32,068 bases of DNA from Paracoccaceae bacterium (GTDB taxonomy: Bacteria; Pseudomonadota; Alphaproteobacteria; Rhodobacterales; Rhodobacteraceae), in contig JAAEUB010000036.1 of assembly GCA_024227755.1 (NCBI GenBank), forward strand, positions 1 through 32,068. Direction: 5' to 3'. Made by a program: the position numbers and the translations under genes. Positions 1,070-17,058 of the stretch are shown one piece after another. Under the pieces are notes generated by a model. The model saw only the letters and a program-made list of their open reading frames with translations, was not told where the DNA came from and made no database searches. The stretch's first letter is position 1, and every line of letters begins with the position of its first letter.

Positions 1070-2128
1070 ATGCCAAGACGCTGGATGATGATCAGCAAAG
1101 ACCAACCGCTGGGCTTGCAGGAGTTTACTTCTGACAGTCCCGGACCTGGCGAGGTTATCGTTGAGGTCGCGGGCTGTGGCGTTTGCCATACCGATCTGGG
1201 TTTCTATTACGATGGGGTGCGCACGAATCAGCCTCTGCCTCTTACCCTTGGTCATGAGATCAGTGGCGTTGTCACCGAGGTCGGCGAAGGCGCCGATAGC
1301 TGGCTGGGCCAGACCGTGATTGTGCCCGCAGTAATGCCTTGCGGTGAGTGTGACGAATGTCAGCGCGGCAAAGGCACCATTTGCAAGTCGCAGAAAATGC
1401 CTGGCAATGACATTGAGGGCGGTTTCGCCAGCCACATCACAGTGCCCGCACGCGGATTGTGTCCGGTCGACATGGACCGCTTGGCGGCGGTCGGGCTGGC
1501 GCTGGCCGATGTCTCGGTAGTTGCTGATGCGCTGACCACCCCATACCAGGCGGCGGTGCAAGCCGGTGTTGGCGAAGGCGATCTGGTTATCGTTAACGGT
1601 GTTGGCGGTGTCGGCGGATACGCGGTTCAGGTGGCAGCGGCCATGGGTGCGACGGTGGTTGCCATTGACGTTGTTGATGAAAAGCTGGCCGCCCTTGGCG
1701 AATACGGCGCCGCGCTTACGCTGAACGCCCGCAATTTTGATGGTCGCGCGCTGAAAGGTGAAATCATCGGTTTCGCCAAGGCAAACGGCCTGAAAACCCG
1801 CGAATGGATCATTATGGAATGCTCGGGCACCGCTGCCGGGCAGAAGGCCGCTTTTGGTCTGATGAACCACGGTGCCACTATGTGCGTCGTCGGCTTCACC
1901 ATGGACAAGGTTGAGGTGCGCCTCTCAAACCTCATGGCTTTTCATGCCCGCCTTTTGGGCAACTGGGGTTGCCCACCCGAACTTTACCCCGGCGCGCTTG
2001 AGTTGGTTCTGAACGGAAAGGTCAAGCTGGCCCCGTTCGTTGAGCAAAAACCGCTGGATGAGATCAATCAAGTTTTCAAGGACGTGCATGACGGCAAACT
2101 TATTCGCCGCCAGATCCTCGTTCCTTAA
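1070..2128 (+). CDS. had: 6-hydroxycyclohex-1-ene-1-carbonyl-CoA dehydrogenase
   Basis: This 352-residue zinc-dependent medium-chain alcohol dehydrogenase oxidises 6-hydroxycyclohex-1-ene-1-carbonyl-CoA to the 6-oxo compound with NAD+. Visible are a catalytic zinc set (Cys39 in GVCHTD, His62-Glu63 in GHE), a four-Cys structural zinc lobe (Cys91, 94, 97, 105) and a Rossmann motif GVGGVGG at ~177. The segment after Cys39 ([14 protein letters not shown]) is characteristic of the Had group rather than general alcohol dehydrogenases. ATG 1070 is preceded by GGAGGGG at 1060-1066. It is first in the benzoyl-CoA reductase operon, 18 bp before oah, and its partner enzymes follow directly. A long antisense frame (1034-1870) is a shadow. 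Confidence 0.93.
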
Positions 2129-2146: not shown

Positions 2147-3259
2147 GTGACCTTTAATTTTGAATCCCACGATCTGGTAGCAGACGACGTTCGTAACGCG
2201 ATTACAGATCAGGTTTTGTTTGAAAAACGCCCCGCCACTCTGCCTGACGGCACCGAGGTTAAAGGGCTGTATAACGCATGGATTATCCTGAATAATCCTT
2301 CGCAGTTCAATTCGTACACCACCGACATGGTCAAGTCGGTTATCCTGGCTTTCCGCGCGGCGTCCAACATGCGCGACGTTAACGCCGTTGTCTTTACCGC
2401 CGCTGGCGACAAAGCGTTCTGCACTGGTGGCAACACCAAGGAATACGCAGAATATTACGCCGGTCGTCCACATGAATACCGCCAGTATATGCGCCTGTTC
2501 AACGACATGGTCTCGGCAATTTTGGGCTGTGACAAACCAGTGGTTTGCCGGGTCAACGGCATGCGCATCGGTGGCGGTCAGGAAATTGGCATGGCGTGCG
2601 ATTTCTCGGTTGCGCAGGACATGGCGCGCTTTGGTCAGGCTGGACCGAAACACGGATCGGCCGCAATCGGTGGCTCGACTGACTTCCTGCCAGTGATGAT
2701 CGGCTGCGAACAGGCGATGAACTCGGGCGTGCTGTGTGAAAGCTTTACCGCGCAAAAGGCGCTTCGTCTTGGGGTCCTGACCGACATCGTTCCCGGCCTG
2801 AAAGTTGACGGCGAATATGTCGCCAACCCGCTGGTCGAGATGGAAATGAAGACCGACTTTATGGGCCGTTTGATGCACGGAGAAATGAAAACCGGCGATG
2901 ATCTGGCGGCGGGCAAAGCCCTGATGAAAACCGGTACAATGGATCTGTCCGCCCTGGACGCCAAAGTAGACGAACTGTGCGGCAAGCTGCTGCTGACCTT
3001 CCCTGACTGCACCACAAAATCGGTGGAAGAGCTGCGCAAACCCAAGCTGAACGCATGGAACGCCAACAAGGAAAACAGCCGTGCATGGCTTGCTGGCAAC
3101 ATGATGACCGAGGCCAACATGGGCTTCCGCGCCTTCAACGAAGGCACCCGTGAAGTCGGCCGCGAGGTTGATTTTGTCGCTGTGCGTCGTGAATTGGCCG
3201 AGGGGTCGAAATGGACACAGGACTTCATCGATGGTCACATGCCAGGTGTGCGCAAGTGA
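2147..3259 (+). CDS. oah: 6-oxocyclohex-1-ene-1-carbonyl-CoA hydrolase (ring cleaving)
   Basis: This 370-residue member of the crotonase superfamily adds water to 6-oxocyclohex-1-ene-1-carbonyl-CoA and hydrolytically opens the ring to 3-hydroxypimelyl-CoA. The crotonase fold is seen in the oxyanion-hole segments AFCTGGNTKEY (~85-95) and GMRIGGGQEIGMACD (~139-153). The protein is about 110 residues longer than a simple enoyl-CoA hydratase, as is normal for Oah, and the extra C-terminal part is intact. The start is GTG 2147, with AGGAG at 2136-2140. Its stop overlaps the GTG start of dch (GTGA at 3256-3259), which implies translational coupling. Together with Had and Dch it marks the Thauera-type branch of the pathway, not the cyclohex-1-ene route of R. 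palustris. Confidence 0.93.
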   Translation: MTFNFESHDLVADDVRNAITDQVLFEKRPATLPDGTEVKGLYNAWIILNNPSQFNSYTTDMVKSVILAFRAASNMRDVNAVVFTAAGDKAFCTGGNTKEYAEYYAGRPHEYRQYMRLFNDMVSAILGCDKPVVCRVNGMRIGGGQEIGMACDFSVAQDMARFGQAGPKHGSAAIGGSTDFLPVMIGCEQAMNSGVLCESFTAQKALRLGVLTDIVPGLKVDGEYVANPLVEMEMKTDFMGRLMHGEMKTGDDLAAGKALMKTGTMDLSALDAKVDELCGKLLLTFPDCTTKSVEELRKPKLNAWNANKENSRAWLAGNMMTEANMGFRAFNEGTREVGREVDFVAVRRELAEGSKWTQDFIDGHMPGVRK

Positions 3260-4023
3260 GCGACTGCCTGACCATAAGCTCAGACCTTGACGGTGCTGTA
3301 TTGCGGCTGAAGCTGAGCCGGCCCAAGGCAAATATTGTCGACGCTGCGATGATCGCAGCGCTTGACCAGGCTTTGGCCGGGCACGAAAGCGGGCGTGACC
3401 TGAAGGCGGTACTGATCACCGCTGAAGGTCCGCATTTCAGCTTTGGTGCATCGGTTGAAGAACACTTGCCCGAAAGCTGCGCCGCCATGCTTGGTGCGCT
3501 GCACGCCCTTGTTAAGCGGATGCTGGAATACCCGGTGCCCGTGCTGGTCGCCGTGCGTGGGCAGTGTTTGGGCGGTGGTCTGGAAGTGGCGATGGCGGGG
3601 CATATGATTTATGCCCGCCCGGATGCCAATCTTGGTCAGCCTGAGATGATGCTGGGTGTATTCGCCCCGGCTGCATCCGTGCTGATGCCCGAACGCATGG
3701 GGCAATCACACGCCGAAGATCTGCTGTACTCAGGGCGGTCCCTGTCTGGAGACGAGGCGCATGCTGCCGGGTTGGTTGATACTATCGCCGAGGATCCTGA
3801 AGCCGCCGCGCTGGAATGGATCGAGACACATCTGAGCCCCAAAAGTGCGTCATCGCTGCGGCTGGCGGTAAAGGCCGCGCGCGCGGCCTTGCGTCAGCGT
3901 CTGGCCGCAAGGTTAGACGAAGTTGAAGCACTTTACCTGAACGAACTCATGAAAACCCGTGATGCTGTTGAGGGCCTTCAGGCCTTCCTCGCTAAACGAA
4001 AGCCCGAGTGGGAGAACCGATGA
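3256..4023 (+). CDS. dch: cyclohexa-1,5-diene-1-carbonyl-CoA hydratase
   Basis: This 255-residue crotonase-family hydratase adds water to the cyclic dienoyl-CoA made by benzoyl-CoA reductase, giving 6-hydroxycyclohex-1-ene-1-carbonyl-CoA, the Had substrate. Oxyanion-hole motifs are HFSFGASVEEH (~60-70) and GQCLGGGLEVA (~101-111), and the length fits known Dch. I chose GTG 3256, which overlaps the oah stop as GTGA. An in-frame ATG at 3211 would add 15 residues but overlap oah by 49 bp and has no good ribosome-binding site. Its stop overlaps the bcrC ATG (ATGA at 4020-4023). The general annotation would be enoyl-CoA hydratase; the specific role rests on position between oah and bcrC. Confidence 0.9.
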   Translation: MSDCLTISSDLDGAVLRLKLSRPKANIVDAAMIAALDQALAGHESGRDLKAVLITAEGPHFSFGASVEEHLPESCAAMLGALHALVKRMLEYPVPVLVAVRGQCLGGGLEVAMAGHMIYARPDANLGQPEMMLGVFAPAASVLMPERMGQSHAEDLLYSGRSLSGDEAHAAGLVDTIAEDPEAAALEWIETHLSPKSASSLRLAVKAARAALRQRLAARLDEVEALYLNELMKTRDAVEGLQAFLAKRKPEWENR

Positions 4024-5195
4024 GCAATCCAACGACAACAGAAATAGTAGCCCGCGCGCAGGAACTTTATGAAGACCTGAACTTCACTGCCGCGCGTGAA
4101 TGGAAAGACGCCGAGCCGGGGCGCAAAGTCATCGGCTATCTGCCGGTTTATATTCCGCGCGAACTGATCCATGCCGCAGGGTTTCTGCCGCTTGGCATCA
4201 TGGGTGGCGGTGATAACCTCGAGGTCATCCACGGCGACGCTTATTACCAAAGTTATATCTGCCGCATCCCGCGCTCGACCGTCGAACTGGGCGTTTCAGG
4301 GCGGGTGGATTTTGTCGACGGCATGTTGTTTCCGTCGATCTGCGATGTGATCCGCAATCTTTCAGGCATGTGGAAGATGTTGTTTCCCGAGGTGTACTCA
4401 AAATATTTCGACGTGCCGCAGACCTACAAAGACGAAGTCGGCGGCACCTTCTATATCGGTGAGATGCGCGAGCTATTACACGATCTGGAAGAGCTTGCCG
4501 GGCGCAAGATCACCGACGACGACATCAATGCTTCGATCGCCGCCTATAACGAAAACCGCCAGCTGGTGAATGAACTTTATGCCCTGCGCGCCGCGGTTCC
4601 GTGGCAGGCGCCAGCGTCCGAGGCCTATCTGATAATCCGTGCAGGCCTGGCGCTGCCGGTCCAAAAACCTTCGGTTATGCTGCGTCAGTATATTGACGCC
4701 GCCAAAGCCGAAGAACGCCCGATGAAGGACAATTCAAAGGTTGTCGTCACTGGCATGTTCTGCGAGCAACCGCCGCTTAACCTAATCAAATCATTGGAGC
4801 TTTCGGGCTGCTATGTGGTTGACGACGACTTTATGCTGGTAAGCCGCTGGCTGACCAAAGACGTGCCGACAGACGGCGACCCGGTCTATGAGCTTAGCCA
4901 GGCTTTCCTGCACCATTCTATGTCCACTGCCGCCAAATACGAACCCGACCTTGCCGAAAAGGGTCAGTTCCTGGTGCGTTCAGTGCGTGAAACCGGGGCC
5001 GAGGGCGTTATCTTCGCCTCGACCAGCTTCTGCGACCCCGCCCTTCTGGATCGGCCGATGCTGCAAAATGTCCTCAAGGACGCGGACATCCCCTTCATCG
5101 CATTCAAGTACGCCGAAAACTCAGGCCAGATGCAACCGATCCGTGAACAGGCGGGTACGTTTGTTGATTCAATCAAACTATGGAGCGCAGCATGA
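4020..5195 (+). CDS. bcrC: benzoyl-CoA reductase, gamma subunit (BcrC/BadD type)
   Basis: This 391-residue member of the HgdB/2-hydroxyacyl-CoA dehydratase D-component family forms, with BcrB, the half of the enzyme that binds benzoyl-CoA and [4Fe-4S] clusters and carries out the two-electron ring reduction. Cysteines that could ligate clusters occur in SYICRI, PSICDV, GMFCEQ, SGCYVV and SFCDPA, spread as in the family. The start is ATG 4020, overlapping the dch stop as ATGA, with GGGAG at 4010-4014. An in-frame GTG at 4008 is less likely. The gene overlaps bcrB by 4 bp. The order C-B-A-D equals that of Thauera bcr and R. palustris bad genes. Confidence 0.93.
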   Translation: MSNPTTTEIVARAQELYEDLNFTAAREWKDAEPGRKVIGYLPVYIPRELIHAAGFLPLGIMGGGDNLEVIHGDAYYQSYICRIPRSTVELGVSGRVDFVDGMLFPSICDVIRNLSGMWKMLFPEVYSKYFDVPQTYKDEVGGTFYIGEMRELLHDLEELAGRKITDDDINASIAAYNENRQLVNELYALRAAVPWQAPASEAYLIIRAGLALPVQKPSVMLRQYIDAAKAEERPMKDNSKVVVTGMFCEQPPLNLIKSLELSGCYVVDDDFMLVSRWLTKDVPTDGDPVYELSQAFLHHSMSTAAKYEPDLAEKGQFLVRSVRETGAEGVIFASTSFCDPALLDRPMLQNVLKDADIPFIAFKYAENSGQMQPIREQAGTFVDSIKLWSAA

Positions 5196-6499
5196 AACCT
5201 TCTATCGTGAAAGCCCAACCTGGTGACGTCGAAAAAGACGCCTCTATGATCAAGCAGAAGCAGATGATGGCCGCTCATTACGAGCGTCTTTCAAATGCGC
5301 CCGAAACGGGTGAGAAGGTCGCCTCGACCTTCGTTCCGGGTAACCTGAATGAGCTCTTGATGTGCTTTGATCTGGTGAACAACCTTCCCGAGGTCAACGC
5401 CATTCAATCCGGTCTTCGCAAGAAAAGCGGACAATACATCATGGAGGCCGAGCGTGCTGGCCACTCCGAGGATGTATGTACCTACGTGAAATCCGATATC
5501 GGCATGATGATGAAGGGCAATATCGGCCCTAACGGTCGTGAACTGCCCAAGCCTGACGTGCTGCTTCTTAGCTATACCGGCTGTTTCACCTTCCTGAAGT
5601 GGTTCGAGCTGCTGCGCGAGCAGTATAAATGCCCGACCATCTTCCTGCAGACACCGTACATGGCCGACGGCAAAGTCACGCCGAACATGATCCAGTACAT
5701 GGTCAAACAGTTCAAAGAAACTGTGATCCCGACGCTTGAAGAAGTCTCAGGCGTCAAGTTCGACATTGACCGCCTGCGCGAATACCTCGCCAAGTCCGCC
5801 AAGGCCGAAGACGATCTTGTTTACATCCTTGAGACCGGCAAAAACAAACCGTCGCCCATCGACGCCTACTTTGGCGGCATCTACTATATCGGACCGATTT
5901 TCGGTGCCTTCCGCGGCACAGATGACGCGATTGATTACTACAAATTCCTGCGTGAAGAAGTTGATCAGCGGATGCTTAAGGGCCTTGGCCCTGTTACCCC
6001 TGATGGACCTATGGGCGAAGAAAAATACCGCCTTGTGGTTGAAGGCCCGCCCAACTACACCAGCTTCCGCCAGTTTTGGAAGATGTTCTATGAAGAAGGC
6101 GCAACCGTAGTGGCATCAAGCTATACCAAGGTTGGCGGCACCTATGATTATGGCTTCCGTCATGATCCCGATCGCCCGCTGGAAAGCCTGGCCGAGTATT
6201 GCCTGGGTGTTTACACCAACCGGTCACTGCCAATGCGTATCGACATGTTGACTGACTATATCAACGAATACGAAGCGGACGGGCTTTTGATCAACTCGAT
6301 CAAATCCTGCAACAGCTTCAGCGCCGGTCAGCTGTTGATCATGCGCGAAGTTGAGAAACGCACAGGTAAACCCGCCGCGTTCATCGAAACCGACCTTGTC
6401 GATCCGCGCTATTTCTCGGCCGCGAACGTCAAAAACCGTTTGGAAAGCTACTTCCAGATGGTCGAGCAGAAACGCTCAGGAAAAGGGGCCGCAGCATGA
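5192..6499 (+). CDS. bcrB: benzoyl-CoA reductase, beta subunit (BcrB/BadE type)
   Basis: This 435-residue second HgdB-like subunit pairs with BcrC to hold the active-site [4Fe-4S] clusters. Family features are the [15 protein letters not shown] segment (~128-142), GGIYYIGP (~225) and the C-terminal stretch [11 protein letters not shown] (~369-379) with a cluster-type cysteine. ATG 5192 overlaps the bcrC stop (ATGA) and has GGAG at 5182-5185. An in-frame ATG at 5180, four codons earlier, is a less likely start. A 4-bp overlap links it to bcrA, which should help make the four subunits in equal amounts. No frameshift or missing region is visible. Confidence 0.93.
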
Positions 6500-7812
6500 A
6501 GACGTTTATTGGCATCGACCTTGGGTCGACGACAACGAAAGCTGTCCTTCTGGACGAAAGCGAACGCATCCTCGGGCGCGGCATCACCAACTCTCGGTCG
6601 AACTATGAGACCGCCTGTAACGTTGCCACAGAAGAGGCCAAGATCGACGCACGCTTCACCCTGTTTCGCCGCGAGTTTGGCGATGGCAACCTGACCGCAG
6701 AGGCCGAAGAATTTCTGGCCAAGCTGGAAAGCTCGTTCCGGCTTGAACAGTTTCTGGAGCAGCTGGACGATTTGGAAGAAACCTGTACAGCCATGGTGAA
6801 AGGCGACCGTTTTGCCACCACTGGTGACGCTGTCAAAGCCGCTTTGGCCGAGGTTTTCGTGCGCCTGCGCAAAGAGGCGGGGCCGATGTACGAGCCCGGC
6901 GCCGAGCGTAAATCGGACTTTTTTCGTGATATCGCCGGGTCGCGTTACCTAAACCTTGCCGAAGAGGTCGGGAACGAGATGGATGTTGCCCATGATGTTC
7001 TTTTGAACATCTATGACAAGTCGATCATCGCCGTTGAAAACCGCCCGCCTGCCGGATCACTGGACGAAAAGTTCGCCCGTGCAATGGAGCGGATCACGGA
7101 CGGCGTAGTTGACCCAAGTCTGAGCGAAAAAGCTGCACGCGCTTTGGCTGTCGAGCTGGAAGAAACCTATCTGGTTGGCACCGGTTATGGCCGTGTTACC
7201 TTGCCGTTCTCAAAAGAGCATATTCGTTCTGAAATCCTATGCCACGGGTTGGGGGCGCATATGATGTACCCCAAGACCCGCACGGTTCTGGATATCGGCG
7301 GGCAGGATACCAAGGGCATTCAGATCGACGAAAACGGCATTGTCGAAAACTTTCAGATGAACGACCGTTGTGCCGCTGGTTGTGGCCGTTACCTTGGTTA
7401 CATTGCTGACGAAATGAACATGGGTCTGCACGAACTTGGACCTTTGGCGATGAAATCCTCAAAGCCTGCGCGCATTAACTCGACCTGCACGGTTTTCGCC
7501 GGGGCCGAGCTGCGTGACCGTCTGGCGCTGGGCGAAGCGCGCGAGGATATCCTTGCCGGTTTGCACCGCGCTATCGTGTTGCGGGCAATTTCGATCATCT
7601 CGCGTTCTGGTGGGGTTACCGATGAGATGACCTTTACCGGCGGTGTTGCCAAAAACGAGGCCGCCGTGCGTGAGTTGAGAAAGCTGATTCTCGAAAACTA
7701 CGGCGAAGTAACTATCAATATTGACCCGGATTCGATCTATACCGGCGCATTGGGTGGGGCTGAATTTGCCCGCCGCGCCGCCGAAGGTCGCGTAGAAGGA
7801 GTGGAAGCATGA
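6496..7812 (+). CDS. bcrA: benzoyl-CoA reductase, alpha subunit (ATPase half, BcrA/BadF type)
   Basis: This 438-residue ASKHA-fold ATPase is related to the activator of 2-hydroxyacyl-CoA dehydratases. With BcrD it couples ATP hydrolysis to low-potential electron transfer from ferredoxin into BcrBC. Seen are the phosphate-1 loop IDLGSTTTK (~7-15), a second nucleotide motif [10 protein letters not shown] (~271-280), and two cysteines expected to bridge a [4Fe-4S] cluster with BcrD: Cys292 in DRCAAGCG and Cys331 in STCTVF. An insertion of about 150 residues (~50-230) relative to BcrD is normal for BcrA. The gene has ATGA overlaps with bcrB and bcrD. Confidence 0.94.
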
Positions 7813-8654
7813 CCCTAGCAGCAGGAATTGATGTCGGCACTGGGGCCGTCAAGGCGGTGATTTTCCGCGTCGAAGATGGAAATGAAGAATGGCTGGCAAA
7901 GACCACCCTTCGTATTCGTCAGCGTGACCCGATGCAGCTTGCGCGTGAAGCGTTTGACCTGGTGCTGGAAGAGGCAGGCGTCAAGGAAGAAGACCTTGAT
8001 TACGTTGCCACAACCGGCGAAGGCGAAGCCATTCCTTTCCACACCGGTCACTTCTATTCGATGACCAGCCACGCGCGCGGTGCTCGCTTTTTGAACCCCG
8101 ACACTGTGGCGATCATGGATTGCGGTGCTCTGCACGGGCGCGCAATGATCACCGATGAACGCGGCAAGGTCACCAACTATAAAATGACCAGCCAATGCGC
8201 CTCGGGTTCTGGCCAGTTTCTGGAAAACATCGCCCGTTATCTTGGCATCGCCCAAGACGAGATTGGCGCGCTGTCGATGCAGGCGGATGATCCTGAAGAA
8301 GTATCGTCAATCTGTGCCGTGCTGGCCGAAACCGATGTGATCAACATGGTCAGCCGGGGCATCACTGCGCCTAATATCCTGAAAGGTATCCACCTTTCCA
8401 TGGCCGGACGTCTTGCCCGTTTGCTGAAATCAATTGGCGTCAAAGATGACCTTGTGATGATGACTGGTGGTCTGGGGCTGGACGAAGGTCTGTGCGAAGC
8501 GGTGCGCGAGAAACTGGCAAGTATGCGCGGGGTCGAGGCAGAGGTGGTGAACCATCCCGAATCGATCTACGCTGGTGCAATTGGTGCGGCCCTCTGGGGC
8601 GCGTTCCGTTACGGCAAACTCACGTCCCAAGGACAAATGTTGAAAGCTTCATGA
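7809..8654 (+). CDS. bcrD: benzoyl-CoA reductase, delta subunit (ATPase half, BcrD/BadG type)
   Basis: This 281-residue ASKHA-fold ATPase partners BcrA. The phosphate loop is [12 protein letters not shown] (~6-17). Two cysteines fit the shared [4Fe-4S] cluster: the one in SQCASGSGQ and the one in [10 protein letters not shown], equivalent to Cys292 and Cys331 of BcrA. The MTGGLG segment near residue 218 belongs to the nucleotide site. It lacks the large insertion of BcrA, so the pair is of the Thauera/Rhodopseudomonas type by length. It is the last reductase subunit gene. The stop is followed at once by AAGGAA, the ribosome-binding site of the ferredoxin gene. Confidence 0.94.
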
Positions 8655-9096: not shown

Positions 9097-10074
9097 CTAC
9101 AGCAGTTTTCGCAAGGTAACCCGTTGTGCGGGTGCAAACCCGGTGGCGCTGAAATATTCAATCAACCTTGTATCATCCCAATCCACCTCGGTGCGCACAC
9201 TTGCAACCTGAAGCACGTTCAGGCTTGCCATCAGTTTCGCCATCAGAACCTGGCCAATACCCAGTCCCTGAAATCCCGGATCGACGCCCAGCGCATCCAT
9301 GACGGCTTCGCTGCTGGTATGACCAAATTCGCCGTAATCCACTCGCGCCATGATGAAACCGACGACAAATCCATCCTGCTCGGCAACCAATGACACCTGC
9401 ACACCGCTTTGATGCAGGTTCTCGTGTTGCTTGCGGGCGAAATAGGCGCTGCGGTCGATACCGGTCGTGGCTGTGTCGATTGCAATGATCTTATCCAGAT
9501 CACCCTCGCGCATATTTCGTACAGGTACCCTTTCATGTGACAGGGCGTTTTCCGCGTCACCGTCGGGCGAGCTGTAATCGGGTCCGTCCGGGTCTTCTGC
9601 AAGATCCTCTTCGTCCAGCTCCAGCACAATTTCGTCGGTGTTTCTGGTCAGGACCAACCGCGATGCCAGTTCAAACCCGGCATGGGCAAAAAACCCGTGT
9701 ACTTTTGGTTGGGACCAGTCGATTTGGCTCATCAAAGTGGCGACGCCTTTATGGCGCAGCACCTTTTCAATCTCTTCCAGCAGCATGTGGCCATAGCCCC
9801 TGGCACTGCTTTCCGGGTCCACACCAATGGCATCCAGGGAGGCCGAGGCACCGCTTTTTCCAAACTCGCCACTGACCAGCTTGGCGAAGGCAAAGCCTGC
9901 CAGTTTGCCGCCCGCGTGCAGGCCAACATAGACATAATCGCGCGGCCCTTCAGTGGCCGCCGCCAGACGTTTTTCAAAATAACCACGGCGCGAGGTGCCG
10001 CTGGTGGCTTTATCAATGGCGATCACAGCCTCAAGGTTTTCTGCGGTCAGTGGTCTTAGTTCAACTTCTGTCAT
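9097..10074 (-). CDS. tandem GNAT-family N-acetyltransferase (two domains)
   Basis: This 325-residue protein is made of two GNAT domains, ~5-150 and ~185-325. Each has an acetyl-CoA loop: SARGYG after GVDPES in the first, QGLGIG after GVDPGF in the second. Each starts with a similar signature, D-x3-[ST]-G-x2-R-x2-Y-F, so the protein arose by duplication. An acidic linker (~150-185) joins them. ATG 10072-10074 has AGGAG overlapping the hemerythrin stop 9 bp upstream, so the two are probably cotranscribed. GNAT enzymes are known in anaerobic aromatic metabolism (KatA and Pat acetylate acyl-CoA synthetases and BadL acetylates aminobenzoates in R. palustris), but the substrate here is unknown. 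Confidence 0.8.
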   Translation of the reverse strand: MTEVELRPLTAENLEAVIAIDKATSGTSRRGYFEKRLAAATEGPRDYVYVGLHAGGKLAGFAFAKLVSGEFGKSGASASLDAIGVDPESSARGYGHMLLEEIEKVLRHKGVATLMSQIDWSQPKVHGFFAHAGFELASRLVLTRNTDEIVLELDEEDLAEDPDGPDYSSPDGDAENALSHERVPVRNMREGDLDKIIAIDTATTGIDRSAYFARKQHENLHQSGVQVSLVAEQDGFVVGFIMARVDYGEFGHTSSEAVMDALGVDPGFQGLGIGQVLMAKLMASLNVLQVASVRTEVDWDDTRLIEYFSATGFAPAQRVTLRKLL

Positions 10075-10083
10075 GGCAACCTC

Positions 10084-10584
10084 CTAGTGGTTTTCGGCGT
10101 ATGCGGTGGATAATTCCATATCGGTTTCATCATCCAGAAGATCTTCCAATGCTGGCAAAAGCGCCATTTCTTCTTTCTGGATATGAACAAACATGCGTTC
10201 GATCAGCTCGCTGGCAGTATTGCGAAACTGCGCCCAGCTTTCATTGTCGAAGCCGTTCTGTAAAGCCTCGGCGGCCTGTGTTGCCACCGCTTGCCCCAGA
10301 GGCAGCATAGCGGCATGTTCTCCACGCAGATGTTCGCCAATAGCCACATCGCCCATTTCCTCAAGTCGGGTAAAAAGCTCATTTTCTTCAAAGGAAAAAT
10401 GGCTTGAGACTTCTTCATCAATGGTGCCGGCTGTGTTTTTCAACACCCTTTGAACGTTGGGGTCACTGGTATCGGGGGCCTTTTTGCGGGCCTTTGCGAT
10501 CATCTGGTCCAGCCCTTCAATCACCGCGATTGTCGCTTGATGATCTTCGTGTAAAAGCTGGGCAGTCCGTCGGGAATAGCTCAT
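10084..10584 (-). CDS. hemerythrin-like domain protein
   Basis: This 166-residue four-helix hemerythrin-type protein has candidate diiron ligands His12/His15, His62 and Glu66/67, His85/His90, and His134 with Glu138/139, spaced as in cation-binding hemerythrins. Such proteins bind O2 or NO, or help to repair iron centres damaged by them. No transmembrane or signalling domain is present, so it should be cytoplasmic. It lies between a tandem GNAT gene (9 bp downstream) and the Rrf2 regulator (104 bp upstream), and has its own promoter-like sequence at 10632-10660. In this locus it may protect oxygen-sensitive benzoyl-CoA reductase and ferredoxin; that role is inference. Confidence 0.85.
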   Translation of the reverse strand: MSYSRRTAQLLHEDHQATIAVIEGLDQMIAKARKKAPDTSDPNVQRVLKNTAGTIDEEVSSHFSFEENELFTRLEEMGDVAIGEHLRGEHAAMLPLGQAVATQAAEALQNGFDNESWAQFRNTASELIERMFVHIQKEEMALLPALEDLLDDETDMELSTAYAENH

Positions 10585-10622: not shown

Positions 10623-10660
10623 CCTAAATCAGTATTACAATGCCGGTTTAAGAATGGCAA
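10623..10660 (-). promoter_or_regulatory. promoter of the hemerythrin gene with overlapping candidate Rrf2 operator (site B)
   Basis: On the minus strand TTGCCA (10660-10655), a 17-bp spacer and TAATAC (10637-10632) make a good sigma-70-type promoter reading into the hemerythrin gene. The block 10623-10649, which covers the -10 element, matches site A at 18 of 27 and site C at 18 of 27 bases. The dyad is imperfect here (CAGTA-N6-TGCCG). Confidence 0.55.
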
Positions 10661-10688
10661 GGTAGTTCAGCGCCTTGTCCATTGTGTG

Positions 10689-11120
10689 TTAAGCATGTGG
10701 CACTTTCCTCGCCCGTGCCTTTTCGTGACGTTCAATCTGCTTGAGCATCGTTGCCAGGGTGATTGAGCGATAAGTGGACATGGCCATATCGTTGATCTCT
10801 TTCGAGATATCAAACAATGCCCATTCCTCGGATGTGGCTACATTAGGTGCGGTCAGTTTGCAGCTGGTTGATGTGTCTTCAAAAAGACTGATCACATCAA
10901 AAAGTGTGATGCGCCGCGCGTTGCCGGTGAAACTGTAGCCACCGCCAACCCCGCGGATTGACTGCACCAATCCGGCCCGGCCAAGCGTCAGCAGAACCTT
11001 AGCCAAATGATGTGCCGAGACGCGGTACTTTTCGCCTATCTCAGCAGTCGAGATCTGGCGTTCCGGATTCGACGCCAGCTCGATCAAAGCGTAAATTGCC
11101 AGCCTACTTGATTTTTGCAC
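10689..11120 (-). CDS. Rrf2-family transcriptional regulator, BadM-like by context
   Basis: This 143-residue protein has an N-terminal winged helix typical of Rrf2 (SSRLAIYALIELA at 4-16; SAHHLAKVL at 35-43; RGVGGGY at 56-62). It contains a single cysteine, Cys87, whereas IscR and NsrR use three cysteines to hold an Fe-S cluster in this region; it therefore may not sense through a conventional cluster. In R. palustris BadM, an Rrf2 protein, represses the benzoyl-CoA reductase operon. Position between the bcr and hcr operons and near a recurring dyad suggests the same job here. The start is GTG 11120 with AAGGAAA upstream; the gap to the upstream GNAT gene is 36 bp. Confidence 0.85.
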   Translation of the reverse strand: MQKSSRLAIYALIELASNPERQISTAEIGEKYRVSAHHLAKVLLTLGRAGLVQSIRGVGGGYSFTGNARRITLFDVISLFEDTSTSCKLTAPNVATSEEWALFDISKEINDMAMSTYRSITLATMLKQIERHEKARARKVPHA

Positions 11121-11156
11121 TTGTTTTCCTTCGCTTAACGGGCAGTTCCCCGGCGG

Positions 11157-11648
11157 CTATTCATCGTCAAGGTTCAGTTCCAACTGGGTATAGGGCCCCG
11201 CCATCATACCTTCCGAGCGGAAGAATGACATGTGCAGAGGATTTTGGCGCTGGACCATGGTGCGCACCTTGGTGATCCCCGCCCCGCGAAACTCGTCGCA
11301 GATTGCTTTGAATAAAAGTTCACCAATACCGCGCTCACGGCTGTCGGGGTCAACCGATACGGCAAATATCCAACCACAGGGTTCCGAGCCGAATTCCCAT
11401 CCACGTACTTCGCCCGCGATCAGACCCAGGATCGGGCAGTCAGCATCATCATCGCAGGTATTGGCGATCAGGAAAAACCGTTCCTCTACCCGGCGCGCGC
11501 CATAGCGATCATATATGTCGCGCCAGTATTCAGGCTTGGCTTTACCGGTAATTCGTGCATCAAGATCAGCTACGTGATCCAGATCATCTTTTGTTGCGCG
11601 GTGGATCAAAATCTCGCCCTCTGACGCTTTTTCTGGCCTTGGGTCCAT
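11157..11648 (-). CDS. single-domain GNAT-family N-acetyltransferase, BadL-like by context
   Basis: This 163-residue protein has the GNAT acetyl-CoA loop RERGIGELL after SVDPDS (~105-120) and the signature D-x3-T-G-x2-K-x2-Y-W near the N-terminus that also opens both domains of the tandem protein at 9097-10074. It is first in the leftward group and sits directly before the Rrf2 gene, as an acetyltransferase (BadL) is linked with BadM in R. palustris; BadL acetylates aminobenzoates. Homology to BadL itself could not be tested. ATG 11648 is preferred; an in-frame TTG one codon earlier is possible. No strong Shine-Dalgarno is present. Confidence 0.75.
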   Translation of the reverse strand: MDPRPEKASEGEILIHRATKDDLDHVADLDARITGKAKPEYWRDIYDRYGARRVEERFFLIANTCDDDADCPILGLIAGEVRGWEFGSEPCGWIFAVSVDPDSRERGIGELLFKAICDEFRGAGITKVRTMVQRQNPLHMSFFRSEGMMAGPYTQLELNLDDE

Positions 11649-11669
11649 CAATTCTCTATACCACGCTTT

Positions 11670-11696
11670 GCTTATTCAGTATAATGGTACCGATTT
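11670..11696. promoter_or_regulatory. candidate Rrf2 operator, site C, between the GNAT-Rrf2 group and hcrCAB
   Basis: The dyad CAGTA-N6-TACCG (11677-11692) is palindromic in four of five positions and sits in a 27-bp block similar to sites A and B. It covers TATAAT at 11680-11685 on the plus strand and TATACT on the minus strand, so a bound protein would affect both the hcr operon and the operon that encodes the regulator (autoregulation). I found no good -35 element for hcrC, which might point to an activator. Confidence 0.45.
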
Positions 11697-11734
11697 ATTG
11701 CTTTAAAAGTCAAGAAACCAGAAAGGCCGATCTT

Positions 11735-12214
11735 ATGAAGCGGATTGTCAATCTGAATGTCAATGGGCGCCAGGTCGAGGATGTGGTTGCCGACAGTCTT
11801 TTACTAGTTGATTATCTGCGTGATAGGCAGGGGCTTACTGGCGCGAAAAAGGGTTGTGATGGCGGCGAGTGCGGGGCCTGTACCGTATTGGTGGACGGGC
11901 GCCCCAGACTTGCATGCATTACACTTGCGGCTTCGGTTGATGGGGCGAAGATTGAAACCATCGAGGGGCAGGCAAAAAATGGCAGGCTTTCTGCGCTGCA
12001 GCGGGCCTTTCACGAGAACCTTGGCACCCAATGCGGGTTTTGCACCCCGGGAATGATCATGGCCGCCGAAGGGCTTTTAAAAAGTAACTCCGACCCAACC
12101 GAAGATCAGATTAAAACTGCACTTGGCGGCAATCTGTGCCGCTGCACCGGATATGTGAAAATCATCCGCTCAGTCCAGTTAGCAGCGCGAGCGACAGCGG
12201 AGGCTACGCAATGA
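11735..12214 (+). CDS. hcrC: 4-hydroxybenzoyl-CoA reductase, gamma subunit (2 x [2Fe-2S])
   Basis: This 159-residue iron-sulfur subunit belongs to the xanthine oxidase family. The plant-type [2Fe-2S] site is Cys41, 46, 49 and 61; the second site is Cys100, 103, 135 and 137 (QCGFCTPG and LCRCTGY). It passes electrons between the molybdenum site in HcrA and the flavin in HcrB. By itself it could belong to any molybdenum hydroxylase (CO dehydrogenase or aldehyde oxidase small subunit); the specific call comes from the extra cluster loop in HcrB. ATG 11735 follows GAAAGG; its stop overlaps the hcrA start (ATGA). Confidence 0.88.
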
Positions 12215-14529
12215 ACAAGACCATTGGTAAACCGGTCCCGCTGATTGACGGGGTCGAAAAAGTTACAGGCAAGGCGCTTTATACCGCTGATCTAGATGGT
12301 CGTGAGGCGCTTGTTGGACGGATCCTGCGTTCGCCAGTCAGTCACGGGAAAATCCGGCGCATTGATACCACAAAAGCTGGGGCCCTGCCCGGTGTAATGG
12401 CAGTTGTTACCGGCGATGATTGCGATATGACGTATGGCGTTATTCCCATCGCCATGAACGAATACCCGATGGCGCGCGAAAAGGTACGATATCGCGGTGA
12501 ACCGATAGCGGCGGTGGCAGCGTTGGACGCTGAAACTGCCGAACAAGCGCTGGCATTGATCGAGGTAGTGATTGATGAACTGCCCGCTGTTTATACCTCG
12601 GCCGAAGCTCGCGCCGCGGATGCCTCCCAATTGCACGAGAAAAAGCCCGGCAATCTTGAACGTGACGTGCATCATTCTTTCGGTGACATCGCGCAAGGTT
12701 TCGCCGCTGCTGATCTGGTGCGTGAGGAGGTCTTTGATTGCGCCGAGATCAACCACGCCCAGATGGAACCACACGCCGCGCTGGCCGAATACGATCCCGA
12801 ACGTGAGCGGCTGACGCTGCATTCGGTTACGCAGGTGCCGTTCTATGTCCACCTGACTTTGGCGCGCTGTCTTGGCATGGACAGCTCGCGGGTACGGGTG
12901 GTGAAACCTTTCGTTGGCGGGGGGTTCGGCGCACGCACGGAAACCCTGAATTTTGAGATTATCGCTGCCCTACTAGCGCGCAAGGTTGGCGGCAAGGTGA
13001 TGATGCAACTCACCCGCGAGGAAAGCTTTCTGACCCATCGCGGCCGACCACAGACACAGGTAAAACTCAAGCTTGGCCTGACCAAAGCCGGGAAAATCAC
13101 CGGTGTTGAGTGCGAAGTTACCATGGCCGGTGGTGCATATGCCGGTTACGGGCTGGTCACCATCCTTTATGCCGGGGCGTTGCTGCACGGAATATATGAC
13201 GTGCCCAATGTCAAATACGATGGCTACCGGGTTTATACGAACACACCACCCTGCGGGGCGATGCGCGGGCACGGCACGGTTGATGTGCGCCACGCCTTTG
13301 AATGCCTGCTTGACCGTATGGCGGGCGAACTGGGGCTTGATCCCTTCGCCCTGCGCCGCGCCAATCTGCTTGCCGCCCCGATGTTTACCGCTAACGACCT
13401 GATGATCAATTCCTACGGGCTGGACGAATGCCTTGATAAGGTCGAAGCGGCCTCAGGCTGGGCCGAAAGGCGTGGGAAGCTTCCCGCGGGCAGCGGCTTG
13501 GGCATGGCCTGCTCGCATTATGTGTCAGGTGCTGCAAAACCTGTACACTGGACCGGCGAGCCCCACGCGGTGGTGTCAATGAAGCTTGATTTTGATGGCT
13601 CGGTAACGGTGCTGACGGGGGCATCTGACATCGGGCAGGGCTCAACCACCATCGTTGCCCTTGCCGCAGCCGAGGTATTGTCGATCGATCTTAACCGGGT
13701 GCGCGTGGTCACCAATGACAGCGTCATCACGCCAAAAGACAACGGGTCATATTCCAGCCGCGTGACATTCATGGTCGGTAATGCCGCGATCGAGGCCGCA
13801 AAAGAATTGCGTGCCAAACTGGTGGCTGCGGCGGCGAAAAAGCTTGAGGTTTCGCCTGAAGAAATCGAATGCGAAGGCGAAAGCTTCTTTATTCGCGGTG
13901 CCGAGCAATCGGTGCTGCCTTTCCACGACGTTGCCATCGCGGCGTTGGCCGAGGAGGGGACGATTACCGTCAAAGGCACATTCACGACACCAAAAGAAGC
14001 GCAGGGCGGCAGGCACCGCGGTGGCGCGGTCGGCTCGACCATGGGCTTTTCTTATGCTGCTCAGGTGGTTGAAGTGTCGATTGATGAAGACACCGGACAG
14101 ATTAGCGTCGAGAAAGTCTGGGCAGCCCTTGATTGCGGTTTCGCCATCAATCCGCTGGCGGTTGAAGGCCAGATTGAAGGCTCGGTCTGGATGGGGCTGG
14201 GGCAGGGGCTTTCAGAAGAAACCGTGTATCAGGACGGATTGCCCGTGCATGCGGGCCTGATGGACTACCGCTTTCCTACCATCGCCGAAAGCCCGCCGAT
14301 TGACGTTCAGATTGTCGAAAGCATCGACCCCTTGGGACCATTTGGTGCCAAAGAAGCGGGCGAAGGCGCTCTTTCCGGTTTTCCTCCGGCGCTTGTCAAT
14401 GCAGTGGCCGACGCGCTGGGATTAGAGGTGAACTTTCTACCTGTCACCCCTGACCGTGTGCTGGCCGCGCTGATGAAATACCGCCGTGCACTGGCCAAGA
14501 AACAATCCAAAAAGGAGGCCGGGAAATGA
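12211..14529 (+). CDS. hcrA: 4-hydroxybenzoyl-CoA reductase, alpha subunit (molybdenum cofactor)
   Basis: This 772-residue large subunit of a xanthine oxidase-family enzyme removes the phenolic hydroxyl from 4-hydroxybenzoyl-CoA to give benzoyl-CoA. Motifs: GKALYTADL near residue 25, GGGFGART (~235-242) in the molybdopterin-binding region, GASDIGQGS (~470-478), and the C-terminal GAKEAGEG where Glu718 is in the place of the family's active-site glutamate. The length fits HcrA/HbaC. The product would feed the Bcr operon of the same locus. The stop overlaps the hcrB start. No molybdenum-cofactor maturation gene is in the window. Confidence 0.88.
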
Positions 14530-15482
14530 GCGAAGTTATGCCCGATTTTCAGCTTGCCCGCCCAACCACACTGGACGAGGCCGTCGTCGCATTGGCAACC
14601 CCTGAAGCGCGGATTATCGCAGGTGGCACCGATTTGAACGTGCAACTTCGCATGGGGCTTGCGGCACCAGCGACGCTTGTCGACCTGAGCCTTATTTCCG
14701 CGCTCAAAACCCTCGAATCCAGCACCTCCGGCACCCGTATCGGTGCAGGCGTTACGCTGGCTGATCTGGCCAGTGACGAACGGGTTGCCGCGTACTATCC
14801 TGCCATTACCGAGGCCGCAGCCCTTGTCGCCGGACCCACCCACCGCGAGGTGGCAACGCTGGGCGGCAACCTTTGTCTTGATACGCGCTGTCTTTACTAT
14901 AACCAAAGCCATTGGTGGCGAAAGTCGAATGATTATTGCCTTAAATACCAAGGGGATATCTGCCATGTTGCCCCCAAAGGCAACCGCTGCCGCGCAGCTT
15001 ACAGCGGTGACCTAGCCCCTGCGCTAATGGTGCATGACGCGCGGCTGGAAATCATCGGCCCGGATGGAATTCGGCAAGTGATGCTGGCAGATTTTTACCG
15101 TGAAGACGGCGCGGATTATATCGACCTTAAACCCGGTGAAATGGTCACCGCAGCAGTTTTACCGCCACCCAAAGGCCCGTCGGGTTACCGCAAAATCCGG
15201 GTTCGCGGCGCGGTTGATTTTCCATTGGCAGGTGTCGCGGTTGAAGCCGAGGAAACCAAAGATGGCAAGCGCTTTACGATCGCCCTGACCGGAACCAATT
15301 CGTGCCCCATCATGGTCGATATGCCTGACGTTTTGACCGACGATCCGAACGCCTTTTTTGCCAACCTTAACAAGGCAGTTCAAAAGGCCGTGTCGCCGCA
15401 GCGCACCACCACTATCGCGCCGCATTATCGCAGGCTTTCAATCGCAGCCATGGCCGCGCGACTGGCGCGTGAGCTGGTGTGA
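14526..15482 (+). CDS. hcrB: 4-hydroxybenzoyl-CoA reductase, beta subunit (FAD and extra [4Fe-4S])
   Basis: This 318-residue FAD-binding subunit carries the FAD motif IAGGTDLN (31-38) and TLGGNL (111-116). Between ~117 and 156 it has a cysteine-rich insertion with Cys117, Cys122, Cys138, Cys146 and Cys155. Such an insertion, binding a [4Fe-4S] cluster, is the hallmark that separates 4-hydroxybenzoyl-CoA reductase from other xanthine oxidase-family enzymes, and lets the enzyme work in the reductive direction. To my memory the ligands in the Thauera enzyme carry the numbers 122, 138, 146 and 155. The stop overlaps the next GTG start (GTGA at 15479-15482). Confidence 0.92.
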
Positions 15483-15736
15483 TCAACACGCCCCCCGGCA
15501 AGTCTTGGCGCGACGGAGAGGGCCTGCATGTGGACACGCGCGGATTGTCACCGCCCGATCCGATGGTGGCTATACTCTGGCATCTTGAACAACCGGGCGA
15601 GCAAGGACCCGTTATTGCCTATCTGGAACGCAATCCCATATATCTTCTTCCCGAACTGGCCGAGCGTGGTTGGAAATGGGACATTACCGACAACACACCC
15701 GGCGCGGTGCGCTTGATTCTGAGGGCAGAAAAATGA
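15479..15736 (+). CDS. DUF2249-type small protein (TusA-like fold)
   Basis: This 85-residue protein has the D-x-R-G-L-x-P-P-x-P motif (19-28) of the DUF2249 family, which has a SirA/TusA-like fold but no catalytic cysteine here. GTG 15479 overlaps the hcrB stop and its own stop overlaps the start of the membrane protein (ATGA), so all are one translationally coupled unit. DUF2249 genes are often found beside hemerythrin, NO-related and denitrification genes; their function is not settled. Why it follows an aromatic reductase is unknown. Confidence 0.75.
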   Translation: MINTPPGKSWRDGEGLHVDTRGLSPPDPMVAILWHLEQPGEQGPVIAYLERNPIYLLPELAERGWKWDITDNTPGAVRLILRAEK

Positions 15737-17058
15737 GCATGGCAGCAGGCTTTCTTGGGGGTGCGAAAGACCGGCTTTTGCCCGCTTCCATACCATTCAG
15801 GTTTTTCCTGTCAGCGGCGGCGTTTCACATTCTTGCCTGGGCGGTGCTGTTTATGGGTGCAGATCAAGTGGCGGGATTTTCGGGCGGCACCGGACCGGTG
15901 CTTGCGGCAATCCACCTGGCGACGTTGGGCGTCTTTTCGATGACGGCAATTGGCGCAAGCTATCAGCTTTTTCCTGTGGTCACGGGCCGAGCACTGGCGC
16001 GAACATGGCCGGTAAGGCTTAGTTTTTGGTTCCTGTTGCCGGGGATAATCCTTCTGGCCTACGGTATGGGACTGGGCACATCCCTTTTCATGCAAACTGG
16101 CGCAGTATTGGTCACTGTCGGGCTGGTAATGTTTGCGTTTGTGATGGCTGGCAATCTAAGCCGGGCGGCAGGCTCCATGCCTGTGGTGGCGGCGCATGGC
16201 TGGGCGGCGTTGGTGGCGCTTATCATGTTTGCCGGGCTGGGTCTTGCGTTGATCTGGGATTTTGAGGTTGGGTTTTTGGCCGATCATAGCGGCCTGGCAA
16301 TCTTGCATATGATTATGGCCAGCTTTGGTTTCATGGGGCTTCTCGTGGGCGGTCTAAGCCTGATCCTGATCCCGATGTTCGTGCTTACACGAAGTCTGGG
16401 GAACCGGCCGGGATGGGTGCAGCTGGCCTTGGCGGGGCTTGCTCTTGTGTGTTTTTCAATCGCAAACCTGATGGAAATTCCAGCCCTGAACTGGCTTGCC
16501 GTTCTGGCGGGACTGATCACAGCGGGAACCTATATCTGGCAGATGCGCAAAGCTCAGGCTGCAAGCATGCGCAAGCGTCTGGGCCTGTCTTTCATACTTA
16601 TCCGCAGCTCGTGGGGCTTATTGATTCTAACCCTCGTGATCGGCGGCGTCATTCAGGCAGGCCTGCCCATTCCAAATGCCCCGGCATTGTTTGGCTTTGC
16701 CTTGCTGGCGGGCTGGCTCTTAACCTTTCTGACCGGCGTGCTGCAACGGATCATGCCGTTTCTTGCTTCGATGCATGCCAGCGGTATGTCCGGCCTACCA
16801 ATGCTTATGTCCGAACTGGTGGTCGAGACCCCGCTGAAGATCCATGCCTACAGCCACTTTGCGGCGCTCGCTTTGGTGGGGGCCGGGATTGTGCTTGATA
16901 TGACCGTGCTGGTTCAACTGGGCGCAGTTTCCGGCACAATCGGGGCGCTGGCCTTTCTGGCCTTTGCCCTCAACGTGGTGCTGAAACTACGCGCATCACA
17001 GCAAGGCAACCGCGACATCAAGCGCGGGAAACGTCAAAGTTCGCGCGCGCGCAAGTAA
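15733..17058 (+). CDS. polytopic membrane protein, possibly heme-copper-oxidase-I/NnrS-like
   Basis: This 441-residue protein has about 12 hydrophobic segments and a basic C-terminal tail. Histidines inside or at the edges of membrane segments (AIHLATLG ~66, AAHGWAA ~154, ILHMIMAS ~193, HASGMSG and HAYSHFAA near 355-380) could bind heme or metal, and the H-x3-G pattern recalls NnrS and distant subunit-I relatives of heme-copper oxidases. I cannot name the family with certainty. Association with DUF2249 and, in the same locus, hemerythrin points to O2 or NO handling. ATG 15733 overlaps the DUF2249 stop. The 3' end overlaps the convergent gst gene by 25 bp. Confidence 0.6.
   Translation: MSMAAGFLGGAKDRLLPASIPFRFFLSAAAFHILAWAVLFMGADQVAGFSGGTGPVLAAIHLATLGVFSMTAIGASYQLFPVVTGRALARTWPVRLSFWFLLPGIILLAYGMGLGTSLFMQTGAVLVTVGLVMFAFVMAGNLSRAAGSMPVVAAHGWAALVALIMFAGLGLALIWDFEVGFLADHSGLAILHMIMASFGFMGLLVGGLSLILIPMFVLTRSLGNRPGWVQLALAGLALVCFSIANLMEIPALNWLAVLAGLITAGTYIWQMRKAQAASMRKRLGLSFILIRSSWGLLILTLVIGGVIQAGLPIPNAPALFGFALLAGWLLTFLTGVLQRIMPFLASMHASGMSGLPMLMSELVVETPLKIHAYSHFAALALVGAGIVLDMTVLVQLGAVSGTIGALAFLAFALNVVLKLRASQQGNRDIKRGKRQSSRARK

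Follow-up and report, generated by a model that had tools for sequence, protein, structure and literature searches.

A 28-bp palindrome as the probable operator of a BadM-type Rrf2 regulator at a benzoyl-CoA reductase locus of a Paracoccaceae bacterium

The closest described relative of the system considered here is the BadM-BadL pair of Rhodopseudomonas palustris. In the available excerpts of PMC6191541, badDEFGAB is repressed by BadM, a regulator of the Rrf2 family, until BadM is released by acetamidobenzoates, which form when BadL homologues acetylate aminobenzoates; AadR is used alongside BadM in R. palustris, and badL-badM pairs were also noted in Magnetospirillum and Geobacter. On 4-hydroxybenzoate, badM and badL (RPA0663 and RPA0664) were up (excerpt of PMC6974649). 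In Betaproteobacteria, BzdR controls the benzoyl-coenzyme A (CoA) pathway (excerpt of PMC6678401), and BzdR and BoxR are described as regulators of benzoate pathways (excerpt of PMC6449761). Here we analyze a 32,068-nucleotide stretch of DNA (the window), which is contig C36 (JAAEUB010000036.1) of a 3.34-Mb draft genome in 539 contigs from a Paracoccaceae bacterium. The window encodes an Rrf2-family protein (positions 10689 to 11120) beside a GNAT acetyltransferase (GNAT1), and three copies of a palindrome in its intergenic gaps are very probably the operators through which this protein acts as a BadM-type repressor.

As in R. palustris, the Rrf2 gene adjoins a GNAT gene and the pair is tied to benzoyl-CoA reductase genes. 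The window differs in its reductase cluster, which is of the had-oah-dch-bcr type. Unlike R. palustris BadM-BadL as described, it also has an operator that precedes a hemerythrin gene, hcrCAB and the GNAT-Rrf2 pair, as well as phenylacetate-type genes elsewhere in the genome. BzdR and BoxR, which share with the window protein a role (predicted for the latter) in control of the benzoyl-CoA pathway, are not known to form an Rrf2/GNAT pair. We read the window regulator, by analogy, as a probable further BadL-BadM system whose regulon is wider.

Three palindromes in the window

The first-pass annotation of this DNA had picked out by eye three similar 27-bp blocks (982 to 1008, 10623 to 10649 and 11670 to 11696) and proposed them as operators of the Rrf2 protein. 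All three were present as claimed, in the korA/had gap, upstream of the hemerythrin gene and in the gap between GNAT-Rrf2 and hcrC, and their ungapped matches were those reported (18/27 for blocks 1 and 2, 16/27 for 1 and 3, and 18/27 for 2 and 3). The shared dyad was also recovered; it is better framed as a 28-bp palindrome with the core GTA-N6-TAC and the consensus (G)TAAWTnRGTAY-TATA-RTACYnAWTTA(C). The copies, with scores from the matrix described below, are as follows.

983 to 1010, no strand: operator 1, korA/had gap; core GTATTAGAGTAC at 991 to 1002; 32.6 bits.
10624 to 10651, no strand: operator 2, upstream of the hemerythrin gene; core GTATTACAATGC at 10632 to 10643; 31.1 bits.
11671 to 11698, no strand: operator 3, divergent gap between GNAT1-Rrf2 and hcrCAB; core GTATAATGGTAC at 11679 to 11690; 31.4 bits.

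The core of the hemerythrin copy reads GTA-N6-TGC. Operator 1 holds a second dyad, GTACTTAATTAC at 999 to 1010, and so comprises two full overlapping dyads. When the consensus was scanned with up to three mismatches, the window matched at the three operators alone and 0/100 dinucleotide shuffles gave any match, a result that is partly circular because the consensus came from a wider site set containing the three operators; the tests on other genomes are not circular. When left out of training, operators 1, 2 and 3 scored 31.4, 29.8 and 30.3 bits, and no other position in the window reached 12 matrix bits.

The first-pass annotation had cautioned that -10-like hexamers contribute to the similarity of the blocks. 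Promoter-like elements on the minus strand do overlap operator 2 (TTGCCA-18-AATACT, for hemerythrin) and operator 3 (TTGACT-18-TACCAT, for GNAT1), and AT content is 63 to 74 percent; a promoter scan for had passed no candidate. The overlaps and the AT content would suit the view that the blocks have no more in common than -10 hexamers, as promoter elements of gaps rich in AT, but the hexamers leave both the symmetry and the conserved outer arms unexplained. The comparisons described next make this explanation extremely improbable.

Conservation of the probable operator in other genomes

Searching with the Rrf2 protein gave 10 loci in the genome collection, 6 of them in Rhodobacteraceae metagenome bins, which form the majority of the named relatives at the locus. 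Among 61 related genomes there were 4 strong relatives besides the window itself, 2 of which were already among the 10 loci. (L, G and C numbers denote loci, genomes and contigs. Some entries are not independent: L041 is G023, L054 is on the same contig as L077/G158, and L048, L052 and L050 are G004, G002 and G729.) The GNAT1-Rrf2 pair was found in every locus examined except L089, where Rrf2 alone was detected. With at most one transition per triplet, GTA-N6-TAC was present in 21 of 23 gaps, the two without it being the GNAT1 gap of L042 and a gap of L047, whose contig begins inside that gap. All trinucleotide dyads were then counted, with no dyad favored, in 19 of the 23 gaps, omitting L047 and three L052 gaps that are near-duplicates of L048. 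GTA-N6-TAC occurred in 16/19 (shuffle mean, 0.33), while the maximum for any dyad across 40 shuffles was 11; the three top observed dyads (17/19 gaps each) all fall within the same extended motif.

In the GNAT1 gaps, the 28 site columns averaged 1.06 bits, against 0.31, 0.38, 0.13 and 0.10 bits in flanking 20-column blocks; this comparison of 11 gaps was anchored on the site and hence favors it. The first-pass annotation had allowed that orthologous loci might conserve the -10 hexamers only. Instead, both half-sites and the outer AT arms were conserved, symmetrically and across families. The dyad count and the site-column conservation led us to reject -10 hexamers alone as the source of the repeat. 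Among 69 distinct site sequences, which are matrix selected and therefore biased, the half-site reads (G)TAAWTnRGTAY. At an offset of exactly 8 bp, a second GTA-N6-TAC with no more than one mismatch is found on the left in 67/89 sites and on the right in 52/89; since it shares 2 of 6 bases with the first and its outer arm lies inside the motif, it describes a long palindrome and is no proof of two dimers.

A symmetric matrix was trained on 20 sites from the window, L041, L045, L046 and L048 to L054. In leave-one-out scoring, 19/20 training sites reached at least 21.1 bits (L051 scored 6.9), and 6 Mb of Markov-1 sequence contained no position at 15 bits, a further point against chance promoter similarity. 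Use of the matrix biases the site lists that follow, and the genomes are drafts. In a class sample of 385 genomes, 22 encoded a window-type Rrf2 protein at an E value of 1e-22, and 20 of these lay outside the training set. A site of at least 15 bits was present in the fetched region of 17/20 held-out genomes and directly before the GNAT gene in 12/20 (L076, L078, L079, L083, L085, L086, L088, L090, L092, L094, L095 and G123, the last on the split contig L180). L080, L082, L084 and L087 have their site before the bcrC or oah operon rather than before GNAT. Members of the G102 family encoded Rrf2 in 69/75 genomes, and a site was found in 28/28 of the loci fetched from them (L098 to L125; lowest best score, 20.4 bits); these loci represent few independent events because they are close relatives. 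Rrf2 was found in 7/398 genomes of a phylum sample, 4 of them newly seen, including G729 (training locus L050). In G689, sites precede had (22.1 bits) and a GNAT2-hemerythrin-GNAT1-rrf2 run (17.3 bits); G843 and G846 have weaker composite sites (14.8 and 13.5 bits).

With a strict pattern, 25 positive genomes showed 68 places (at least one in 24/25) and 11 places were matched in 25 negative genomes (at least one in 9/25; Fisher 1e-5), which also argues against promoter elements alone. The positives were the 22 Rrf2 genomes of the class sample plus G002, G004 and G342, the last with an operator and no Rrf2 match; negatives had no Rrf2 match at 1e-22 (class sample) or nothing stronger than 1.1e-15 (related genomes).

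The reductase itself gave a further comparison. TIGR02263 was matched in 15/385 class genomes, apparently the same sample as that of the Rrf2 search. Rrf2 was present in 14/15 reductase genomes versus 8/370 others (Fisher 3e-19), and an upstream site of at least 20.0 bits preceded the bcrC-containing operon in 15/15, of which 14 are outside the training set and one, G000, is inside it. The scores were 32.6 (G000), 27.2 (G037), 20.6 (G080), 29.1 (G115), 32.3 (G123), 20.8 (G161), 24.8 (G220), 26.5 (G223), 24.1 (G230), 20.0 (G317), 24.1 (G323), 21.6 (G342), 29.3 (G349), 22.4 (G395) and 28.6 (G404) bits. Eight 20-kb stretches around four badI-like genes of the class sample gave no reductase match, and in the G143 family a reductase match was found in 1/36 genomes, as a fragment at a contig edge. 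G342 (L177, 7036 to 7071) has two overlapping sites before had, of 21.0 and 21.6 bits.

Proposed target genes in the window and beyond

From its sequence, the window gene set is assigned to 4-hydroxybenzoyl-CoA dehydroxylation and ATP-dependent benzoyl-CoA reduction. The genes around the operators are as follows.

1 to 945, minus strand: korA-like 2-oxoacid:ferredoxin oxidoreductase (PF01855, PF01558), divergent from had and extending beyond the window.
1070 to 2128, plus strand: had, 6-hydroxycyclohex-1-ene-1-carbonyl-CoA dehydrogenase (TIGR03201 above cut-off), first gene past operator 1.
2147 to 4023, plus strand: oah (2147 to 3259) and dch (3211 to 4023); TIGR03200 and TIGR03189 above cut-off.
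4008 to 8654, plus strand: bcrCBAD, benzoyl-CoA reductase (TIGR02263 and TIGR02260 above cut-off; PF01869).
9097 to 10074, minus strand: GNAT2, a double-GNAT protein (PF00583 in two stretches), the gene after hemerythrin on the same strand.
10084 to 10584, minus strand: hemerythrin-domain protein (PF01814, 1.1e-13), proposed target of operator 2.
10689 to 11120, minus strand: Rrf2-family regulator, BadM-like (Pfam Rrf2, 1.7e-26; TIGR00738; AlphaFold2 model), proposed binder of the operators.
11157 to 11651, minus strand: GNAT1 acetyltransferase, BadL-like by position (Pfam Acetyltransf_1, 2.9e-10), upstream of rrf2; the pair is kept in orthologous loci.
11735 to 15482, plus strand: hcrCAB, 4-hydroxybenzoyl-CoA reductase (TIGR03194 and TIGR03195 above cut-off; TIGR03193 at 256.9 bits, slightly below its cut-off of 257.8).

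A ferredoxin-like open reading frame also lies in the cluster and had no Pfam match. A hemerythrin gene with a near upstream site was found in the window, L046, L048, L049, L051, L052, L076, L078 and L183, which places hemerythrin in a putative BadM-type regulon in several genomes; GNAT2 stays near hemerythrin in several orthologous loci. A site also adjoins hcrC in the window and in most Rhodobacteraceae-type loci with this gene. The bcr site persists across lineages; those at GNAT, hemerythrin and hcr vary. The single regulon of ring reduction, dehydroxylation, hemerythrin and regulator that the first-pass annotation had envisaged has comparative support in this organism and its nearer relatives, with the palindrome standing before GNAT-Rrf2 (and the divergent hcrC), hemerythrin and the had/bcr operon at orthologous loci; further away, only the bcr site holds constant (15/15).

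Several neighborhoods keep GNAT, Rrf2 and operator while the pathway changes. In L054, L083, L088, L092, L094 and L095, GNAT-Rrf2 is divergent from boxC (TIGR03222 above cut-off) with the site between, so that the same pair and operator stand at aerobic box genes; the stretches fetched for these box neighborhoods showed no bcr genes. A relative of benzoate-CoA ligase (43 to 45% identity) is also present in the box loci L054, L088 and L092. A plasmid of Agrobacterium tumefaciens (NZ_CP123840.1) has a 19.7-bit site before the GNAT gene of a GNAT-Rrf2 pair whose neighbors encode a molybdenum hydroxylase, a benzoate-CoA ligase and an ABC transporter. In L045, L046, L047 and L187, benzoate-CoA ligase and short-chain dehydrogenase/reductase genes diverge from a gap that contains a site; in L049 and L076, a site is upstream of benzoate-CoA ligase. 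In L053, L078 and L079, the thioesterase gene described below for C179 is divergent from GNAT1 and the shared gap holds a site. That GNAT, Rrf2 and operator stay together across these contexts is our main reason for assigning the operator to the Rrf2 protein. In excerpts of the open-licence literature searched, no regulon joining hemerythrin and benzoyl-CoA reductase was seen, and among the matches listed none held boxC, Rrf2 and benzoyl-CoA together; absence from print is claimed for neither.

The same constancy bears on another explanation, in which the palindrome is the operator of a different anaerobic-aromatic regulator of the FNR/AadR type and Rrf2 is a bystander. The FNR/AadR operator consensus is TTGAT-N4-ATCAA. 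The window contains 55 matches to it with at most two mismatches (shuffle mean, 36). A 1-mismatch match, TTGACCCTAAACAA at 977 to 990, overlaps the start of operator 1. The partnership of AadR with BadM in R. palustris, cited above, and the 8/20 held-out genomes with no strong site directly before GNAT also fit such a regulator. However, the palindrome is unlike TTGAT-N4-ATCAA, the GNAT-Rrf2 pair remains constant when the pathway shifts from bcr to box or to a molybdenum hydroxylase cluster, and DNA binding would not be expected of a GNAT enzyme. We consider this alternative highly unlikely, and an FNR box was rejected as the explanation of all three blocks, being one weak neighbor at operator 1 only. 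The sequence at 977 to 990 may itself be a -35 element or an oxygen-responsive activator site.

In the window's own genome, a loose pattern matched 31 places versus 23 for the control, and the top three by matrix score were the window operators. The scan demanded an exact match to the loose pattern, so further sites could be missed; a C81 place of 15.7 bits (L174, 10541) was not matched by it. The next scores were 28.8 bits (C179:6874), 22.9 bits (C292:9728) and 14.8 bits (C81:7386). C179:6874 lies directly before a gene for an FlK-type thioesterase, which is followed by a 912-amino-acid (aa) molybdopterin oxidoreductase gene; on its opposite side are genes for 2-oxoacid-oxidoreductase and 4Fe-4S flavoprotein subunits. 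These genes probably form a phenylacetyl-CoA oxidation/phenylglyoxylate dehydrogenase set. PDB searches with the molybdenum oxidoreductase and flavoprotein returned general relatives alone. C292:9728 lies between genes for a DUF2794 protein and PaaI (TIGR02286 above cut-off), and we read the AMP-binding ligase after PaaI as a likely phenylacetate-CoA ligase. The BadL-BadM type of system and these phenylacetate-type targets, which extend the putative regulon beyond the window, go further than the first-pass annotation. At its edge, contig C179 also contains the end of a benzoate-CoA ligase gene (L175, 10431 to 10805), next to the phenylacetate-type genes.

The place on C81 precedes rplM (ribosomal protein L13) and is the palindrome TATGGGGTA-N6-TACCATATT (L174, 6385 to 6412; G000:C81:7386). 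Palindromes of the form GGGGTA...TACC occur in several related genomes without Rrf2 and are perhaps a separate conserved element.

The regulator protein and the proposed switch

The window protein is assigned to Rrf2 by both Pfam and NCBIfam and scores far below the IscR, NsrR, RirA, CymR and HypR equivalog cut-offs (IscR, 56.1 versus 207.55; NsrR, 46.7 versus 182; RirA, 43.8 versus 193; CymR, 47.6 versus 195). Its AlphaFold2 model (predicted local distance difference test score, 88.4) resembles the structures of IscR, CymR, RsrR and NsrR. The fold, shared with IscR, NsrR and RirA together with the winged-helix domain, and a hemerythrin target that would suit oxygen or iron stress could point to an Rrf2 regulator that senses through an iron-sulfur (Fe-S) cluster, with a regulon answering redox, nitric oxide or iron. 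However, alignment showed a single cysteine. An IscR-type cluster has three cysteine ligands, so such a cluster is unlikely here. The majority of the identified target genes are aromatic catabolic; IscR, NsrR and RirA have other known targets. An Fe-S regulator was rejected on the equivalog scores and the single cysteine, and we give this reading next to no weight. CymR, a comparable fold match, is an Rrf2 protein without an Fe-S cluster; its regulon is cysteine metabolism. What places the window protein with BadM is its Rrf2 domain and fold, the adjacent GNAT gene and its co-occurrence with the reductase, which has a putative operator upstream.

In the mechanism that we consider very probable, an Rrf2 dimer would bind the 28-bp palindrome through the half-site (G)TAAWTnRGTAY, overlapping the -10 region, and block transcription. 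The overlap of the operators with the promoter-like elements of GNAT1 and hemerythrin suggests steric repression. Three units would be repressed: had-oah-dch-bcrCBAD, perhaps with the divergent korA; hemerythrin-GNAT2; and GNAT1-rrf2 with the divergent hcrCAB. By analogy with BadL-BadM, the predicted substrate of GNAT1 is an aromatic amine, for example an aminobenzoate, whose acetylated form would take the repressor off the DNA. Since GNAT1 is under the same operator, derepression would be self-reinforcing. Hemerythrin may guard the oxygen-sensitive ring-reducing enzymes. On a broader scale, we lean slightly toward the view that GNAT-Rrf2 and a single operator form a general benzoyl-CoA-node switch in Alphaproteobacteria, covering bcr, box, 4-hydroxybenzoate dehydroxylation, phenylacetate-type oxidation and hemerythrin, with the GNAT enzyme of the pair itself producing the acetylated aromatic that serves as the signal.

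Several observations weigh against the reading of the palindromes as operators of a BadM-type repressor. Three of the 20 held-out rrf2 loci lacked a site of at least 15 bits (G303, at 14.8; G262 and G161, none), G161 having its 20.8-bit site at the reductase operon on another contig. No site of at least 15 bits lay directly before GNAT in L042, L080, L081, L082, L084, L087, L089 and L093, and autoregulation is therefore not universal. Hemerythrin-like genes in L053 and L179, and hcrC in L179 and L186, have no near site. G342 carries the operator (21.6 bits before had) and no Rrf2 match at 1e-22, perhaps through a gap in the draft or through loss or divergence of its BadM-like gene. In real DNA, the 15-bit cut is less than perfectly clean, with stray matches in L083 (15.4 bits), L137 (15.7 bits) and L174 (15.7 bits), and strict-pattern matches also occur without Rrf2 (11 in 25 genomes). 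Seven of these 11 follow the pattern GGGGTA...TACC, directly or as its complement, as does the element before rplM, and probably represent a different element, the neighboring gene having been checked in the window's genome alone. The reversed-pattern control was high, with 49 places in positive genomes (versus 68) and 34 in negatives, so that a large share of the 68 places reflects background in AT-richer genomes. For this organism, we infer Rrf2 binding and repression from site conservation and position, and the likeness to BadM-BadL is drawn from gene arrangement and the published description. Finally, in the excerpts of PMC6191541, acetamidobenzoate weakened BadM binding in vitro at 10 mM and not at 5 mM, which leaves the physiological ligand uncertain. 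The comparative evidence favors the Rrf2 protein as the binder, since the palindrome follows the GNAT-Rrf2 pair into other neighborhoods. A repeat first seen by eye now yields a model that predicts operators for one of the few regulators known to act on benzoyl-CoA reductase genes, and the palindrome provides a definite DNA probe for asking if a small acetylated aromatic is a general signal.

The bin of L046, which bears the gammaproteobacterial name Halieaceae, contains much of the cluster in a Rhodobacteraceae-like version, through either mis-binning or horizontal transfer. A 462-aa protein encoded at 15670 to 17058 of the window has no Pfam or NCBIfam match, and its relatives (46 to 62% identity) lie near hcr or hemerythrin in about 10 orthologous loci.

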